Positions 384-30,737 of a stretch of 32,574 nucleotides of DNA are shown here, in pieces (the stretch's first letter is position 1; each line of letters starts with the position of its first letter). The notes below the pieces were generated by a model that had not been told where the DNA came from, ran no database searches, and saw only the letters and a list, made by a program, of their open reading frames with translations. Location of the stretch: the NCBI GenBank assembly GCA_947487845.1, contig CANKYC010000003.1:1-32574 (forward strand). Direction: 5' to 3'. The stretch is from Rickettsiales bacterium. GTDB taxonomy: Bacteria > Pseudomonadota > Alphaproteobacteria > Rickettsiales > UBA1997. The translations under genes and the position numbers were made by a program.

Positions 384-1382
384 TTATTTTTTGGGTATTG
401 CGGCAAACTTACCAACCTCTATCTGCCTAGCTTCGCTTAGGTAACTGTTTAATTTAGCAGTTTCTTCTTTGGTCTTATTTTTTTTATTTTTTAAATCATG
501 AATCTTAAGATGGCTTCTATTTCTGAGTTTTAATTCACCTTTGGGGGTTATGACAATTCCGGTTATTTCTTTATTGTCGCTTGGCTGGTAAACTTTGAAT
601 TTCTTTTTGTTGTAGCTTAGCCCATGATTTACGATGATTTTTTTTGCTTCCTCCGCCACTTTTACGGCATTGTCACCTGATATAATAATATCATCTACCC
701 ACAGAGACATTTTGCATCTATAATTACTGGAAATCTCGTCTATCTCATCAAACATTTTTTTATTGGCATAATATGCCATAACCATGCTTACCGGAGAGCC
801 AGTAGGTAAGTGATTTTTAAATGTTAATATTTGTGCAAAAATCTTGGCTACAGGTGTCCGGCATTTTAAATCTTTTTCAAAAAAGTTGAATATTGACTCA
901 AATGTAACTGATGGGAAAAATCCCTTAAGATCAAGCTTAACTGCATACTTATCGCTATTTTCTAAGTGAAATTTTGCGTTATCTAGACAGCTTCTTCCTT
1001 TAGTTCCGGAGAATAAATATTCTTTTGTTTGGATTGATGAGAGCAAAAAAGATAAGCGTTGATGAATTTTATATAACCCTTCTTTTTTATTTCCCTTTGG
1101 AGTTTGGCATAATCTTTCTTTTACTGCGGCGATAGCAAACTTTTTGCCGTTAGGCATCTCTATCTTTTCTCGAATATTTTTATCATTTAGTTCGGCATAA
1201 TCTTTCACTCTTACCAAACGATAATCTTTGACTGCTGATTCTATGAAATTTTTGTCATTGGAGCTGCTGATTTCTTCAAGAGTTGAAACATTCACTCCAA
1301 GTATTTCAGATAACTTCTTTTTGCTCGGAAGCTTGTAAAAGCAGGACTTTTCTAACGGATATTTTTTATTACTTTTTTTCAT
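384..1382 (-). CDS. Retron-type reverse transcriptase (332 aa)
   Basis: RT motifs in the translation: KGRSCLDNAKFH (NAxxH), KLDLKGFFPSV, LPTGSPVSMVMAY, LWVDDIIISG (catalytic DD), and ITGIVI at the retron VTG position. Confidence 0.85.
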   Translation of the reverse strand: MKKSNKKYPLEKSCFYKLPSKKKLSEILGVNVSTLEEISSSNDKNFIESAVKDYRLVRVKDYAELNDKNIREKIEMPNGKKFAIAAVKERLCQTPKGNKKEGLYKIHQRLSFLLSSIQTKEYLFSGTKGRSCLDNAKFHLENSDKYAVKLDLKGFFPSVTFESIFNFFEKDLKCRTPVAKIFAQILTFKNHLPTGSPVSMVMAYYANKKMFDEIDEISSNYRCKMSLWVDDIIISGDNAVKVAEEAKKIIVNHGLSYNKKKFKVYQPSDNKEITGIVITPKGELKLRNRSHLKIHDLKNKKNKTKEETAKLNSYLSEARQIEVGKFAAIPKK

Positions 1383-1668
1383 CTTCTTTACAAATCCAAT
1401 CTAGAAAATCGACAGCGGTTTTGGCTAAAAATAATTTAGCTTTTTTTCTTAAGCCTTTTTTATCCTTATATTCTTCTGCAAACAGCATTATAGACGATAG
1501 AGGTATGTCAAAAACATCGGAGTATTTTTGCAAAACTTCAAGAGTTGGGGTTTTGCTATTTGATTCTATTTCTGAAATGTAAGAGCGGGAAATGCCAAGA
1601 TTTTCTGCTAACTCTAGTTGAGTTTGATGATTAAAGATTCTGATGTGTTTTAGTATTGATCCTAGCAA
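1369..1668 (-). CDS. XRE-family HTH protein (99 aa), overlapping the RT gene
   Basis: HTH signature TQLELAENLGISRSYISEIESNSKTPTLEVLQKYSDVF; TTG start preceded by AAGGA; 14-bp overlap with the RT ORF suggests an operon. Confidence 0.8.
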   Translation of the reverse strand: MLGSILKHIRIFNHQTQLELAENLGISRSYISEIESNSKTPTLEVLQKYSDVFDIPLSSIMLFAEEYKDKKGLRKKAKLFLAKTAVDFLDWICKEDEKK

Positions 1669-1697
1669 TGTTGATGTCCTTAAAATTGTAAAAACGG

Positions 1698-2138
1698 AGT
1701 AGAAGTTTTAACTAAAGAAATCGATGACCTTATTAATCGTATCAACTACTGTAAAAACGATTTTTAAAGTAGTTGGGTTTAATAATTTCTTCCTTAGTGG
1801 CTTTTGTTTTTTTCTATTTTTTGACATAATTTTAAAAATAAAATTATGACACAAAGGTGTGTCGCCCCGACTAAACGAAATGAATCAGTCGCCTCAAAAC
1901 CAACGACATTTCCTTTAGTTACTCTCTAGGACGATCAGACGGTAAAAACAAAAGCCGCTTCCACTCCATTTACCCAGATTCACATTACCACTATAATACC
2001 GATAGCGTAACCTAATATAAATTAGATCTGATTTCCTACACATTGTCTTATGCGCAGAAAGGGAGTTAAGATACTTATTCAGCATCTCGTGAGCAAATGA
2101 ATGCTCAAAAAAACATGAGAGTTATCCGCCTTTCACCT
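1698..2138 (-). ncRNA. Candidate structured leader / retron msr-msd-bearing RNA
   Basis: About 470 bp without substantial ORFs between a promoter-like site and the HTH-RT genes. Dense hairpins: 1743-1775 (15 bp, 1 mismatch), 1711-1720/1789-1798, 1730-1736/1779-1785, 1870-1882/1907-1919 (13 bp, 1 mismatch), 1848-1863, 1825-1848, and TGAGCA/TGCTCA near 2080-2105. Boundaries are estimates. Confidence 0.5.
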
Positions 2139-2144
2139 TACACT

Positions 2145-2172
2145 ATTTTCACCACGATAAAATCTTTGTCAA
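2145..2172 (-). promoter_or_regulatory. Sigma70-like promoter for the retron leader-HTH-RT operon
   Basis: Minus strand TTGACA (2172-2167), 16-bp spacer, GAAAAT (2150-2145). Confidence 0.5.
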
Positions 2173-2185
2173 TAAAAATGTTGCT

Positions 2186-2193
2186 GTAAGCGA
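2186..2193. repeat. 8-bp target site duplication (left) GTAAGCGA
   Basis: GTAAGCGA directly abuts the left IR; identical copy at 3861-3868. Confidence 0.9.
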
Positions 2194-2331
2194 GGCAATT
2201 ATCCCTTGACATCGTGATTTAGTTAAGGAGAATTAGAGCCGTCCTGACCGACAGTTTTTTTAATCTCAAAATCTAAGCACGAATGTCAAAAGATCCAAAA
2301 ATTCCTCCGCCAGTTAAAGATGATTACGATA

Positions 2332-2889
2332 TTAAGAGCCTATAAATATACTCTTCATAAGCATCAAAAAACTGACTAAGAAGGAAACCGAAATAATCGC
2401 CAAAGCGACATTAATAAATAGCCCTTTAGTGGCGTTTATCTCTTTTGCTTTGGCGATTCTTGTTGAATAAGTTTGCAACTGACAACAAATCAAAAAGCGT
2501 AAATCTCCCTTATTATATTTCGCTTTCAGAAGTTCTTCTGGCGATGTTCCAATTGTAGGAAATTTTTCTGTTTTGTAGGTAATCGATAGAATTGCGAGGG
2601 CAAGACAAAAGCCGCTGATTAACACAATTAAAAGCCCCTGATAAGAAGAATCCCCAAATTTTAAAATTCCAAATAAAGCAGTTAAAGAGGCGGCTAAAAA
2701 AGTTCTTACTAAAGCACTTTTATTATCGAGAGAATCATAATTTGCCGACACAATCCGCATCAACTTTTCGCCCTCTTGCAGAATGAAATTTGCCTTATCT
2801 AAATCTATTTTATCCCAATCAATTTCATCAGGATTTGCAAGTATTTGAGGCTGATTTTTTTTAGTAAAAAATTGTTTTAAAATCTTCAT
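2332..2889 (-). CDS. Passenger protein with about 3 predicted TM helices (185 aa)
   Basis: Lies inside the IS boundaries, 5 bp from the transposase stop. Hydrophobic segments ALVRTFLAASLTALFGIL, GLLIVLISGFCLALAILSI and GLFINVALAIISVSFLVSFLML. Confidence 0.75.
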   Translation of the reverse strand: MKILKQFFTKKNQPQILANPDEIDWDKIDLDKANFILQEGEKLMRIVSANYDSLDNKSALVRTFLAASLTALFGILKFGDSSYQGLLIVLISGFCLALAILSITYKTEKFPTIGTSPEELLKAKYNKGDLRFLICCQLQTYSTRIAKAKEINATKGLFINVALAIISVSFLVSFLMLMKSIFIGS

Positions 2890-2894
2890 AAATC

Positions 2895-3785
2895 TTACAA
2901 AATTGTTGCTCCAACCAGCTTATCAAAAATAAACTCGTTGTTGCGGTTGTTATATCTAAACGCAAACTCATTCACATAAAGCTGTAAATGTTTCTTGCTC
3001 ACATGATGATAAATCCCATAAACACCACGCTTCAAGGTTGACCAGAAGCCTTCGATTGAATTTGTGTGAGCGTCAGCACCTTTCTTGTATTCACCTTTTG
3101 AGTGATTAACAACTTGGTGCTGAAATTGACTGTAAAGCCAGTAATAAGCCTTGTGTTCATCTGTCATTATTTGGCTGCCTTTCTTCACATTCTCGTGAAT
3201 TTTAGCCATGATCGTATCGCGCTTTGCATCATCAATTACAAAGGCTCTAACCTCCTTATCTCTTTCAAGCATTCCTAAAACAATCATCTTCTCAAAGATG
3301 CCTTTAGCAGCAACTCTTTCACTCATATGTTTGTTTTCTGCTTTGCCGCCCAAGTAGGTTTCGTCAATCTCAATAATTGTATTCATAAAATCATCGTCAT
3401 CATCTTCTTTCTTCTTTTTATTACCCATCGCAAGACGAATCTGGCGAAGCATACGCCAAGCGGTTTTGTAGGTTACTTCAATTTCTCTTTGAAGCTGCAA
3501 CGCACTAATTCCTTTTTTACCATTTAGAAAAAGGTGAATTGCGTAAAACCATTTGCGAAGGTCTGTGCAAGAGTTTTCAAAAATCGTGTCTTTGAAAATT
3601 GAGAAATCTCTATTGCATTCAGCACATCTAAAAAACTTCATCATTTTTTCGTTTGAGTAAGGATAAGTTTTTAAACTTCCGCAGTGGTTGCAGTGAGGCA
3701 TTTCCTTGCTGTATCTAGTTTTAATGTAATAATCTACTATCGCTTGTTCGGTCGGAAATTTTTTCTGAAATCTTAAAAAATTCAT
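2895..3785 (-). CDS. IS1595-family (ISXO2-like) transposase
   Basis: N-terminal zinc ribbon (CNHCG...CAECN) and DDE-type core (IIEIDETYLGGKAENKH, MTDEHKAYYWL, HTNSIEGFWSTLKRGVYGIYH). Confidence 0.92.
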   Translation of the reverse strand: MNFLRFQKKFPTEQAIVDYYIKTRYSKEMPHCNHCGSLKTYPYSNEKMMKFFRCAECNRDFSIFKDTIFENSCTDLRKWFYAIHLFLNGKKGISALQLQREIEVTYKTAWRMLRQIRLAMGNKKKKEDDDDDFMNTIIEIDETYLGGKAENKHMSERVAAKGIFEKMIVLGMLERDKEVRAFVIDDAKRDTIMAKIHENVKKGSQIMTDEHKAYYWLYSQFQHQVVNHSKGEYKKGADAHTNSIEGFWSTLKRGVYGIYHHVSKKHLQLYVNEFAFRYNNRNNEFIFDKLVGATIL

Positions 3786-3860
3786 AAAATCTTTTTCGTT
3801 TGGTTTAAGAATTGTGATTATTGTAAAAAGATTGTTTCACGATGTCAAGGGATAATTGCC

Positions 3861-3868
3861 GTAAGCGA
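3861..3868. repeat. 8-bp target site duplication (right) GTAAGCGA
   Basis: Identical to 2186-2193, immediately outside the right IR. Confidence 0.9.
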
Positions 3869-4182
3869 CATTTAATTTTCTGCAAGATAGCGATAAGTTC
3901 GTAAATGAGACAAAAATTTTGCTCGTAGAAGTGCTTTGATAAGTTTAGGTGAGACATCACAAAGCCAATGTTTTAGAGGCTAAACTATTTGAGAAAGGTT
4001 AAGCATATTCGGAGAAACGGAGAGATAAATACCGAGAAATTGGCGGAAATTCTGAATTGCGGAGAAGAAGCAGTTAAGGCAAATCAAAAAATACAACCCC
4101 CCTTGATCCCGTAAATACAGGGATTGGAGGGGATATAAAAAATTACAAAAACTGAGCGGAGATAGTTTTTGAGCTGTAGTTA

Positions 4183-4274
4183 TGGCGGAGAAAGAGGGAT
4201 TCGAACCCTCGATACAGTTTTACCCGTATACTTTCTTAGCAGGAAAGTGCCTTCAGCCGCTCGGCCATTTCTCC
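4183..4274 (-). tRNA. tRNA-Ser(GCT), CCA encoded
   Basis: Reverse complement GGAGAAATGGCCGAGCGGCTGAAGGCACTTTCCTGCTAAGAAAG...GGTTCGAATCCCTCTTTCTCCGCCA; 7-bp acceptor stem, long variable arm, GCT anticodon. Confidence 0.95.
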
Positions 4275-4419
4275 GTGTGATAATTATTTAGCTGTGGAAG
4301 TGAACATAAGAGTGAAAAGCATTTCGTCAACTTTTTTTACGAGTCTATCGCAAATCAAAATTTTCTTAAGAACTTTTTGATTTGCGACAGGCTCTTTTAA
4401 GTAATACGCCAATTAATTT

Positions 4420-5532
4420 TTATCTCTCGGCGTTAATCGTAAATGTGATTTCAATCTCGTCTTTCACGCCATTGGCTTTTTTCGGGTCGCGGTCGCCGAC
4501 CAAAAATGTGCTGCGTTTGATTGTGGTTTTGCCAACTGCGCGGGCTTTGGTTTGGCTATATTCTTCTAAAATAAATTCTACCGGAGTGGCGATGGTTTTG
4601 CCTTTTATAGTTAACATACCATCAGCGCGGAAAGTTTTTTGAGCGCTTAAATTTGTGAAGCGACTGGCGGTAAAAGTAGCTTTTGGAAAGGCTTGAACTG
4701 AAAGCCAAGCTGCGTTTTTTATGGCGTCTAAGGCTTCGTTGAAGGAGGTGTCGATTGAGGTTGTGTCAATATCAATCTGGATTTTGCTTTTGGTCAATTG
4801 GTTTTTGTCAAAATTAATTTTGCCGTCAAATTTTCTGAAAGATCCGGTGATGTTGGAATTTTCTTGAATAGCACGAAATTCTAATTTGCTTTTGGAAGGA
4901 ATGATTTTCCATTCATCAACTGTTGCGGCTGCTGTGTCGTCTTTATAAGGCATATTGCTGCCAGCTACGGCGAAAGTTAATTCAGATTCGATGGCGATTT
5001 TAACTTCGTCAGAAACACCCGGTAAGCCAAAATCCATGCCGAATTGCGAACGTTTGATCGTAGTTGTGGCGCTGAATCCCGCGGTTTTTCTCTGGTTGAT
5101 CGGGTTGAGACCAATCTTGTTTACTTTCACGTTTAAAGTCACTGGTTTGGTGGTTCCAAGCAAAGTCAAATTACCTTGAACTTTGGCGCTGGTTTTGCCG
5201 AATGGCGTAACTGATGTGCTTACAAATTTCGCAGTAGGGAATTTTTCGGTATAGAAAAAATCTTTGCTTTTTAAATGTTCATCAAATTTGGAATTTCCGG
5301 TGGAGATGGAATCAGTTTTGATGATGATTTCAACCAAGCTGTTTTGCGGGCTGGCTTCGTCTAAAGTTAAAGTGCCGTCAACATCGGTGAATTTTCCTGA
5401 TGGGCTAGAAAAGCCAAAATGATTGGCCGACCAGTTGATATTGGTGTGATTGGTGTCGAATTTGTAAATTTCAGTGGCGTGGGCGGAAAAAGTGCAGAAA
5501 AAAATAGCAAGAATCGGGAGGAATTTTTTCAT
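4420..5532 (-). CDS. Periplasmic protein with two tandem YceI domains
   Basis: Signal peptide; two YceI-like repeats (YKFDTNHTNINWSANHFGF...KRSQFGMDFGLPGVSDEVKI and WKIIPSKSKLEFRAIQ...IKRSTFLVGDRDPKKANGVKDEIEI). Confidence 0.88.
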   Translation of the reverse strand: MKKFLPILAIFFCTFSAHATEIYKFDTNHTNINWSANHFGFSSPSGKFTDVDGTLTLDEASPQNSLVEIIIKTDSISTGNSKFDEHLKSKDFFYTEKFPTAKFVSTSVTPFGKTSAKVQGNLTLLGTTKPVTLNVKVNKIGLNPINQRKTAGFSATTTIKRSQFGMDFGLPGVSDEVKIAIESELTFAVAGSNMPYKDDTAAATVDEWKIIPSKSKLEFRAIQENSNITGSFRKFDGKINFDKNQLTKSKIQIDIDTTSIDTSFNEALDAIKNAAWLSVQAFPKATFTASRFTNLSAQKTFRADGMLTIKGKTIATPVEFILEEYSQTKARAVGKTTIKRSTFLVGDRDPKKANGVKDEIEITFTINAER

Positions 5533-29214: not shown

Positions 29215-30138
29215 ATGAAACAAAGAAACGTAAGGATTTCCAAGATTCAGGATAAACAATTAGATTTTGGTCAAGTTATTAATATTTTAACAAGTTCGGT
29301 AAAAAAAACCGCTAAACCAAAATTCACTTTCATTGATTTGTTTGCTGGGATTGGTGGCTTTCATTTAGCTGCTTCGCAGAATGGCGGCAATTGTGTTATG
29401 GCTTGCGAAATAGACAAGGCGGCAAAACAAACTTATTTAGCCAACCATAAAGTAAAAAACTTTGTTGAAGATATAACGAAGATAAAAACAAAAGACATTC
29501 CAGATCACGATTTACTTTGCGCTGGTTTTCCTTGTCAGCCTTTCTCACAAGCGGGATTTAAAAAAGGTTTTGATGACATAAGAGGCACTTTATTTTTTTA
29601 CATTGCCGAAATTATCAGGGTTAAAAAGCCAAAAGCATTTTTTTTAGAAAATGTAAGACATCTCTTAAATCACGATGACGGCAGAACATTTGCCAAGATA
29701 AAGGAAGTCTTAGAAGAGCTTGGATATTCTTTTTCTTATAAGATAGTTAAAGCCTCTGATTTTGGACTTCCTCAACATCGTCCAAGGCTTTTTATGGTTG
29801 GGTTTAAAAACAAAAAAACTAAATTTGAATTTCCCGAAAAAATACCTTTAAAAGCGACGATGTCAGATATTTTTGGGGAACCTTGCAATAAAACTATTGG
29901 ATTCACCCTTAGAGTTGGTGGCAGGGGTTCTAAAATTGATGATAGGAGAAATTGGGATAGATATTTGGTTGGTGGCAAAGAATACAAGATTCAGTCGAAA
30001 GATGGCGTAAAAATGATGGGCTTTCCCTCTGATTTTAAATTTCCTGTTTCCGAAACGCAGGCAATGAAGCAACTAGGAAATAGCGTTGCCGTTCCAGCAA
30101 TCAGTAAAACAATTGAAGCAATCACAAAATACTTATGA
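29215..30138 (+). CDS. DNA (cytosine-5)-methyltransferase
   Basis: FIDLFAGIGGFHLA, CAGFPCQPFSQAGFKKGFDDIRGTLFF, FFLENVRHLLNHDDG, QLGNSVAVPAI. Confidence 0.95.
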   Translation: MKQRNVRISKIQDKQLDFGQVINILTSSVKKTAKPKFTFIDLFAGIGGFHLAASQNGGNCVMACEIDKAAKQTYLANHKVKNFVEDITKIKTKDIPDHDLLCAGFPCQPFSQAGFKKGFDDIRGTLFFYIAEIIRVKKPKAFFLENVRHLLNHDDGRTFAKIKEVLEELGYSFSYKIVKASDFGLPQHRPRLFMVGFKNKKTKFEFPEKIPLKATMSDIFGEPCNKTIGFTLRVGGRGSKIDDRRNWDRYLVGGKEYKIQSKDGVKMMGFPSDFKFPVSETQAMKQLGNSVAVPAISKTIEAITKYL

Positions 30139-30737
30139 GCGAAATTTTTGAGATTTTAAAGCTAGGCGATAAAGAGCTACATAATCTTTTTAAAGAAATT
30201 ATAAACAAAGCAACTTATACGAGTCCTAGTCAACTAATTAGCGATTGTTGGGCTGAATACGAAAAACAATCAGGGAACAAATCTGCTGACTCTTCTAAAA
30301 ATAAAAACGGGCAATTCCTAGAGTTATTGGTTCAATACATACTTTGCAAAAACGATATTTTACCTTTTTACAAACAAGCAAAAGTTGCCTTTGTTCCCAA
30401 TGTAAATTTTGACGCGCTGTTATACACGAAAGAAATTGGCTCGATAGTTTTAAGTATAAAAACCTCGTTAAGGGAAAGATATAAACAAGCCGATTTAGAA
30501 GCTATCGCACTAAAACAAGTTCACCGCAGATCAAAAACTTTTTTGCTTACGCTTTCTGACGAATATTTGAGCATAAACAAAAAAATAGAAAAAGGTGATG
30601 TAGCTGGCTTGGAAAAAGCCATAAATTGCCGCAATAGTGATTTTGATTTGTTTATAGAGGAGTTGAAAAAATACACTTTTATCGAGGCTGGAAGCGTTGA
30701 AATAGTTATTGGTAATTTACTAAAACAGAAAAAATAA
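30135..30737 (+). CDS. Probable cognate type II restriction endonuclease (200 aa)
   Basis: ATGA overlap with the methyltransferase; PD-(D/E)xK-like NVNFDALLYTKEIGSIVLSIKTSLRERYKQADLEA. Confidence 0.7.
   Translation: MSEIFEILKLGDKELHNLFKEIINKATYTSPSQLISDCWAEYEKQSGNKSADSSKNKNGQFLELLVQYILCKNDILPFYKQAKVAFVPNVNFDALLYTKEIGSIVLSIKTSLRERYKQADLEAIALKQVHRRSKTFLLTLSDEYLSINKKIEKGDVAGLEKAINCRNSDFDLFIEELKKYTFIEAGSVEIVIGNLLKQKK

Follow-up and report, generated by a model that had tools for sequence, protein, structure and literature searches.

A type VI retron operon with a predicted toxin-like gene at the end of its leader, and the apparent overlap of such genes with the a2 arm in related loci

By the profiles of its two larger genes, the operon at positions 384-2140 (-) of the window (the whole stretch of 32,574 nucleotides analysed here) belongs to the type VI retrons, an established kind of anti-virus system in bacteria, and has the order leader RNA, small peptide, HTH repressor and RT. 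The window copy is one more type VI retron, and its interest is type-wide: comparison of related sequences places the a2 arm of the retron RNA within a toxin-like gene in type VI retrons generally, which specialists may already know. The features referred to below are the following.

384-1382 (-): retron reverse transcriptase (RT), 332 aa (PADLOC RT_VI, E = 8.5e-70; Pfam RVT_1)
1369-1668 (-): XRE/Cro-type helix-turn-helix (HTH) protein, 99 aa, TTG start (PADLOC HTH_VI; Pfam HTH_3)
1708-1827 (-): small ORF, 39 aa, MSKNRKKQKPLRKKLLNPTTLKIVFTVVDTINKVIDFFS, toxin-like (profile of type VI peptides)
1828-2140 (-): structured leader RNA, proposed type VI msr-msd (folding; position and layout common to homologues)
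2053-2134 (-): two-hairpin msr-like domain (covariance model R1; covariation in 18 relatives)
2107-2090 and 2088-2068 (-): hairpins of the msr-like domain
1944-1956 (-): 5' arm of a 13-bp helix, GGCTTTTGTTTTT (perfect pairing with 1811-1799)
1799-1811 (-): 3' arm of the same helix, AAAAACAAAAGCC, within small-ORF codons 6-10
1870-1919 (-): hairpin ACTAAAGGAAATG...CATTTCGTTTAGT (repeat search and fold)
1848-1868 (-): GGGGCGAC and hairpin GACACACCTTTGTGTC (fold)
1825-1848 (-): hairpin CATAATTTTA-TTTT-TAAAATTATG enclosing the small ORF start codon (repeat search and fold)
2145-2172 (-): predicted promoter-like site TTGACA-16-GAAAAT, 10/12 consensus positions
2180-2194 (-): CTCGCTTACAGCAAC, a degenerate type VI operator with 3 mismatches to TTCGC-N5-GCGAA (weak, at the expected place)
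2194-3860 (no strand assigned): IS1595-family element with 24-bp perfect inverted repeats and 8-bp target duplication GTAAGCGA

The PADLOC family ranking next after RT_VI matched the RT at 3e-32. The catalytic aspartates D151, D230 and D231 are all kept (SLWVDD), and their columns are invariant in two alignments, one of 19 and one of 6 type VI RTs; the retron motifs NAxxH and xTG appear as NAKFH and ITG. The adjoining HTH gene matched HTH_VI at E = 2e-33 over 92 aa, and the reading frames of both genes are intact. In PADLOC, RT and HTH are the only components listed for type VI retrons, and on these profiles the initial annotation was right in regarding the region as the leader of an HTH-RT operon that is a retron. 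The locus agrees with type VI retrons (classes of Mestre et al. 2020; PADLOC retron_VI) in the order of its RT_VI and HTH_VI genes, in the small ORF upstream of the HTH gene and in a structured leader, with a putative two-hairpin msr-like domain. It differs in its RT, which is 30-37% identical to those of the relatives found and has a 24-aa insertion near the N-terminus, and in a weak a1/a2, an additional helix of 13 bp that reaches the peptide gene and an IS1595 element at the promoter. The assembly carrying the operon is a ca. 1 Mb, 57%-complete genome, probably alphaproteobacterial by its gene content; among 348 genomes of the same order, just 2 others have an RT equally close to RT_VI. A search of the first 4.5 kb of the window against Rfam returned no retron family matches, and among plasmids no DNA-level similarity was found. 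Retroelements of P2-like and Mu-like phages (Escherichia P2_2H1, Klebsiella ST147-VIM1phi7.1, Shewanella MuM16-1; PMC8541194) share the three genes and the leader layout; these are phage-borne and gammaproteobacterial, whereas the window copy lies beside an IS and tRNA-Ser in a small genome.

The initial annotation had described 1698-2138 as one leader of about 440 nt. Structured RNA indeed extends over ca. 2140-1828, but about 120 nt (1827-1708) are the coding small ORF. When 13 peptides encoded at other type VI loci, the window left out, were made into a profile and this was run against the 427 window ORFs, the small ORF came out on top at E = 1.5e-10, with the runner-up at 0.11; a profile from 51 peptides retrieved it at 2.4e-6. 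An ORF of 33-67 aa just upstream of the HTH gene was tabulated for 47 loci (the window and 46 others), i.e., those from phages, plasmids, IMG/VR contigs and GTDB genomes in which HTH and RT were both present and which were readable far enough upstream. A net positive N-terminal half followed by a hydrophobic or amphipathic C-terminal stretch was found in 47/47 peptides, and the gene was present in all four held-out loci that were found later (L099-L102). By a Ka/Ks of ca. 0.25 in the enteric group, the peptide gene is under purifying selection in these relatives. The presence of a small gene in type VI retrons is not new, as PMC8541194 (citing Mestre 2020) associates them with genes for small auxiliary proteins.

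The window peptide, encoded at 1827-1708(-), has a basic N-terminus and an amphipathic C-terminal helix, with a charge of +8 and a hydrophobic moment of 2.4. AlphaFold2 predicted a helix at residues 18-38 (pLDDT ca. 93). We regard the peptide as toxin-like, of the cationic amphipathic kind, with predicted toxicity. It resembles type I toxins such as TisB in being a small cationic amphipathic helical peptide whose translation is plausibly limited by 5' UTR structure, and differs from them in its linkage to RT and HTH genes and in the absence of a Pfam match to TisB, the window peptide being without any Pfam hit. A single relative's peptide resembles TisB at E = 0.028, below the Pfam cut-off. 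The peptide family was not found in Pfam, NCBIfam or PADLOC as tested; its enteric version corresponds to PHROG 15287/5826, where its function is unannotated. No clear Shine-Dalgarno sequence precedes the window peptide. An ORF of ca. 62-68 aa with a hydrophobic stretch was also seen just upstream of more distant RT_VI-like genes (L104, L105, L106, L107 and L109); these ORFs are less basic than those of true type VI loci and may belong to a related retron group.

We then consider the fold of the leader. The 663-nt region 1669-2331, which contains it, folds at -185.9 kcal/mol, compared with -143.7 kcal/mol for shuffled sequences (z = -7.6, 20 shuffles). For the leader by itself (2145-1828) z is -2.6, and with 60 nt of the small ORF added it is -4.9; the 3' end of the leader RNA probably runs into the ORF. 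All inverted repeats that had been reported for 1698-2138 are present: 1743-1757/1761-1775 is 93% complementary, 1870-1882/1907-1919 is 92% complementary, and GACACA/TGTGTC (1848-1863), CATAATTTTA/TAAAATTATG (1825-1848) and TGAGCA/TGCTCA (2090-2107) are where they were said to be. GAAAGG/CCTTTC also exists as sequence but is unused in the predicted minimum-energy fold. The arms of the nested repeat 1711-1720/1789-1798 and of TTATTAA/TTAATAA are likewise there, but not as leader RNA: since 1827-1708(-) is a protein-coding small ORF, the nested hairpins, which span 1711-1798, belong to the coding part. Their folding is only moderately better than that of synonymous recodings (p ca. 0.02-0.03). 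The strongest long-range helix, 1956-1944/1811-1799, had not been among the reported repeats; its 13 perfect pairs are rarely equalled when the leader is dinucleotide-shuffled (p = 0.002).

In most loci a common layout can be recognised by eye: a1 is followed by a short motif of purines, with a consensus near YGARRG, and by two hairpins; then come a stem region that varies, one hairpin, in many cases GGGCGA, another hairpin, a Shine-Dalgarno sequence and the peptide start. The window element at 1848-1868 recalls, again by eye, an element found in many type VI leaders, GGGCGA plus a hairpin upstream of the peptide. Leaders of enteric P2-like phages show good conservation and can be aligned over ca. 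300 nt. A pairing of GAGAG (after a1) with CUCUC (before GGGCGA), convincing by eye, was discarded as not above shuffles (Fisher p = 0.78).

The two-hairpin msr-like domain is, as far as alignment can tell, common to the type VI loci examined. In 18 relatives, 90% of its cells are paired, versus 68% in shuffled alignments and 39-57% in slid ones; 10 of the 13 msr pairs have double-sided changes, and the covariation score is 0.76 versus 0.30. A wider alignment of 27 sequences was left out owing to the misalignment of hairpin 1. Covariance model R1, from whose construction the window was excluded, recovers the held-out loci L099, L100 and L101. Run over both strands of the window (32.6 kb), it matched 2134-2053(-) with 10.9 bits and a weak E of 0.58; this match ranks third in the window, but sits at the expected place. 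Scaled to the ca. 150 nt where relatives put the domain, the value becomes ca. 0.001 by our own calculation, which relies on that expectation. G2134 in UGAAAG is a candidate branching G. As had been supposed, the leader probably holds a retron-type RNA domain, in which homologues covary.

The supposition that this leader is unusually long did not hold: the distance from the start of the msr motif to the peptide start codon is 307 nt in the window and 209-301 nt in 29 relatives, and a leader of ca. 310 nt is normal for the type. Nor is it a novel class of msr-msd, its layout being that of the type VI loci examined. The numerous nested hairpins and two terminator-like stems could be read as parts of one long non-coding RNA that combines a retron RNA with an HTH-RT attenuator in a new layout; we consider this highly improbable, because the 3' third of such an RNA is a conserved ORF, by profile match and in held-out loci, and because the leader has the usual type VI length. 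The extra length that had been attributed to an attenuator stems from the small ORF instead. The tails of the terminator-like stems are AT-rich, with no run of T, and no convincing T-run terminator was seen in the leader, so an attenuator or terminator was rejected.

Sequences that could bring the two ends of the retron RNA together were clear in relatives of the window, where the ca. 14 nt preceding the msr domain (a1) are complementary to the beginning of the peptide ORF (a2), at approximately codons 3-14. Examples are TTGGTTAGTT/AATTAACCAA, CGATGTGT/ACACATCG, TGCTTATCAGCA/TGCTGATAGGCA, AAGAACTTTTA/TAAAAGTTCTT and AGCTTTAGGC/GCCTAAAGCT. When each a1 of 24 loci, the window included, was paired with its own a2, the energies summed to -312 kcal/mol, versus -209 +/- 13 kcal/mol for swapped partners (z = -7.8, p = 1e-5); the non-redundant Fisher p is 6e-10. 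The complementarity of a1 and a2 that the initial annotation had proposed to look for is therefore a property of the relatives, but in the window it is unconvincing: at the conserved place we found UAGUG/CACUA, ca. 5 bp, ranking 20 of 24, and when 2160-2133 was searched for a1/a2 pairing with 1850-1640, nothing rose above shuffles. The 13-bp helix of the window lands on the same peptide codons from a different point.

The standard order of a retron RNA is a1-msr-msd-a2. With a2 in the peptide ORF, the ribosome site and start codon of the peptide should then be on the template side, bracketed by msr and a2. The order is expected to be the same as in Retron-Eco1 (Ec86), and in enteric type VI loci the UUAGUGAG that follows a1 presumably recalls the Ec86 branching site. 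Type VI differs from Ec86 in that a2 is inside a coding gene and in that its candidate effector is not a nucleoside deoxyribosyltransferase-like protein.

Upstream of the leader, the promoter-like site at 2172-2145, if used, agrees with a transcript start near 2138-2140. The palindrome TTCGC-N5-GCGAA is found upstream of the leader at type VI promoters (e.g., L040, L047, L057 and L074); it is perfect in 23/47 loci and has at most one mismatch in 31/47, while shuffles expect 0.6. It is likely the operator of the HTH protein. The IS1595 element ends at 2194, 22 bp upstream of the -35 box of the promoter-like site, so that the retron operon extends no farther upstream than this point. It is a single copy in the assembly and contains a transposase gene, 2895-3785(-), and a 185-aa passenger gene, 2332-2889(-), which is membrane-protein-like and without a Pfam hit. 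The latter was ruled out as a retron effector, since it sits within the IS1595 element.

The proximity of the IS to the -35 box, the degenerate operator-like site, the failure to find a good a1/a2 in the window and the strong alternative helix onto codons 6-10 could together mean that the leader, as a long structured 5' UTR, serves mostly to switch the translation of a type I-like toxin mRNA and that retron function in the window has been lost or is decaying after IS1595 insertion. However, the RT and HTH frames are intact with every catalytic residue present, and the promoter-like site is within the part that was retained. We regard this reading as improbable.

For type VI retrons as a whole we propose that folding and copying of the leader RNA leave the peptide untranslated, and that disturbance by a phage lets it damage the membrane; we give this proposal somewhat less than an even chance. 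Transcription would start near 2140, and the leader would fold into a retron RNA with the msr hairpins at 2134-2053, followed by a region to be copied that continues into the small ORF as far as its first codons. Reverse transcription, yielding msDNA, would begin within these codons and go back through the start codon and the ribosome site. The peptide would be kept untranslated by folding, and by copying together with removal of the template by RNase H; the HTH protein probably represses the operon via the TTCGC-N5-GCGAA operator. A phage disturbing RT, RNA or msDNA would cause the peptide to be made; as a cationic amphipathic helix, it would then compromise the inner membrane, halting the infection. 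We infer that the window copy works in the same way, although an a1/a2 pair of its own was not found.

Since general occlusion of the start region was not found on average (its accessibility across loci was not below that of the rest of the leader, p = 0.29), the simplest, folding-only version of this proposal is weakened. The template-destruction version is unaffected by this result. There, reverse transcription itself would be the antitoxin: RT and RNase H would destroy the ribosome-binding site of the toxin, and a block of RT or msDNA would lead to its translation. We advance this specific version with considerable doubt. Computation supports the individual parts and the geometry of the pairing; in either form, we infer a switch between translation and reverse transcription in type VI.

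The same retron may instead act at the protein level, the peptide being an auxiliary subunit or effector held by an RT-msDNA-HTH complex and the overlap of a2 with the ORF reflecting compact packing. Retrons of other types sequester effectors in an RT/RNA/DNA complex, according to PMC12548924, and the small auxiliary proteins of type VI mentioned in PMC8541194 would fit. Against it, the basic N-terminal half and hydrophobic or amphipathic C-terminal stretch of every peptide tabulated are like those of small membrane toxins, and the overlap of a1/a2 with the ORF is maintained among very divergent loci. We judge it unlikely in itself, and nearly as likely as control at the level of translation.

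Of 5426 complete E. coli genomes, 99 carry the leader and peptide, on the chromosome, and 98 of the 99 have at least 80% of the operon in one place. These copies (H60-H119) include O157:H7 strains. Between E. coli groups the leader shows the higher conservation, at 97.4% versus 84.4% for the whole operon (O157 group). Three further observations were made. In the same genome as the window, a second, distant RT domain lies in a 650-aa open frame (L002, G000:C8:14509-14850; RT_VI E = 4.7e-6). On a Microvirga plasmid, a TIR-domain gene (3483-4442) is directly 3' of the type VI RT of L047. At 29215-30737 of the window, a C5 cytosine DNA methyltransferase gene and a 200-aa gene that comes after and overlaps it resemble a type II restriction-modification pair.

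No paper explaining the type VI retron effector was found in the literature searched. A toxin-like peptide that is conserved, and whose first codons also serve as a2, would provide a concrete effector candidate and a simple control mechanism, and the window illustrates that an apparently non-coding leader can conceal a short gene.
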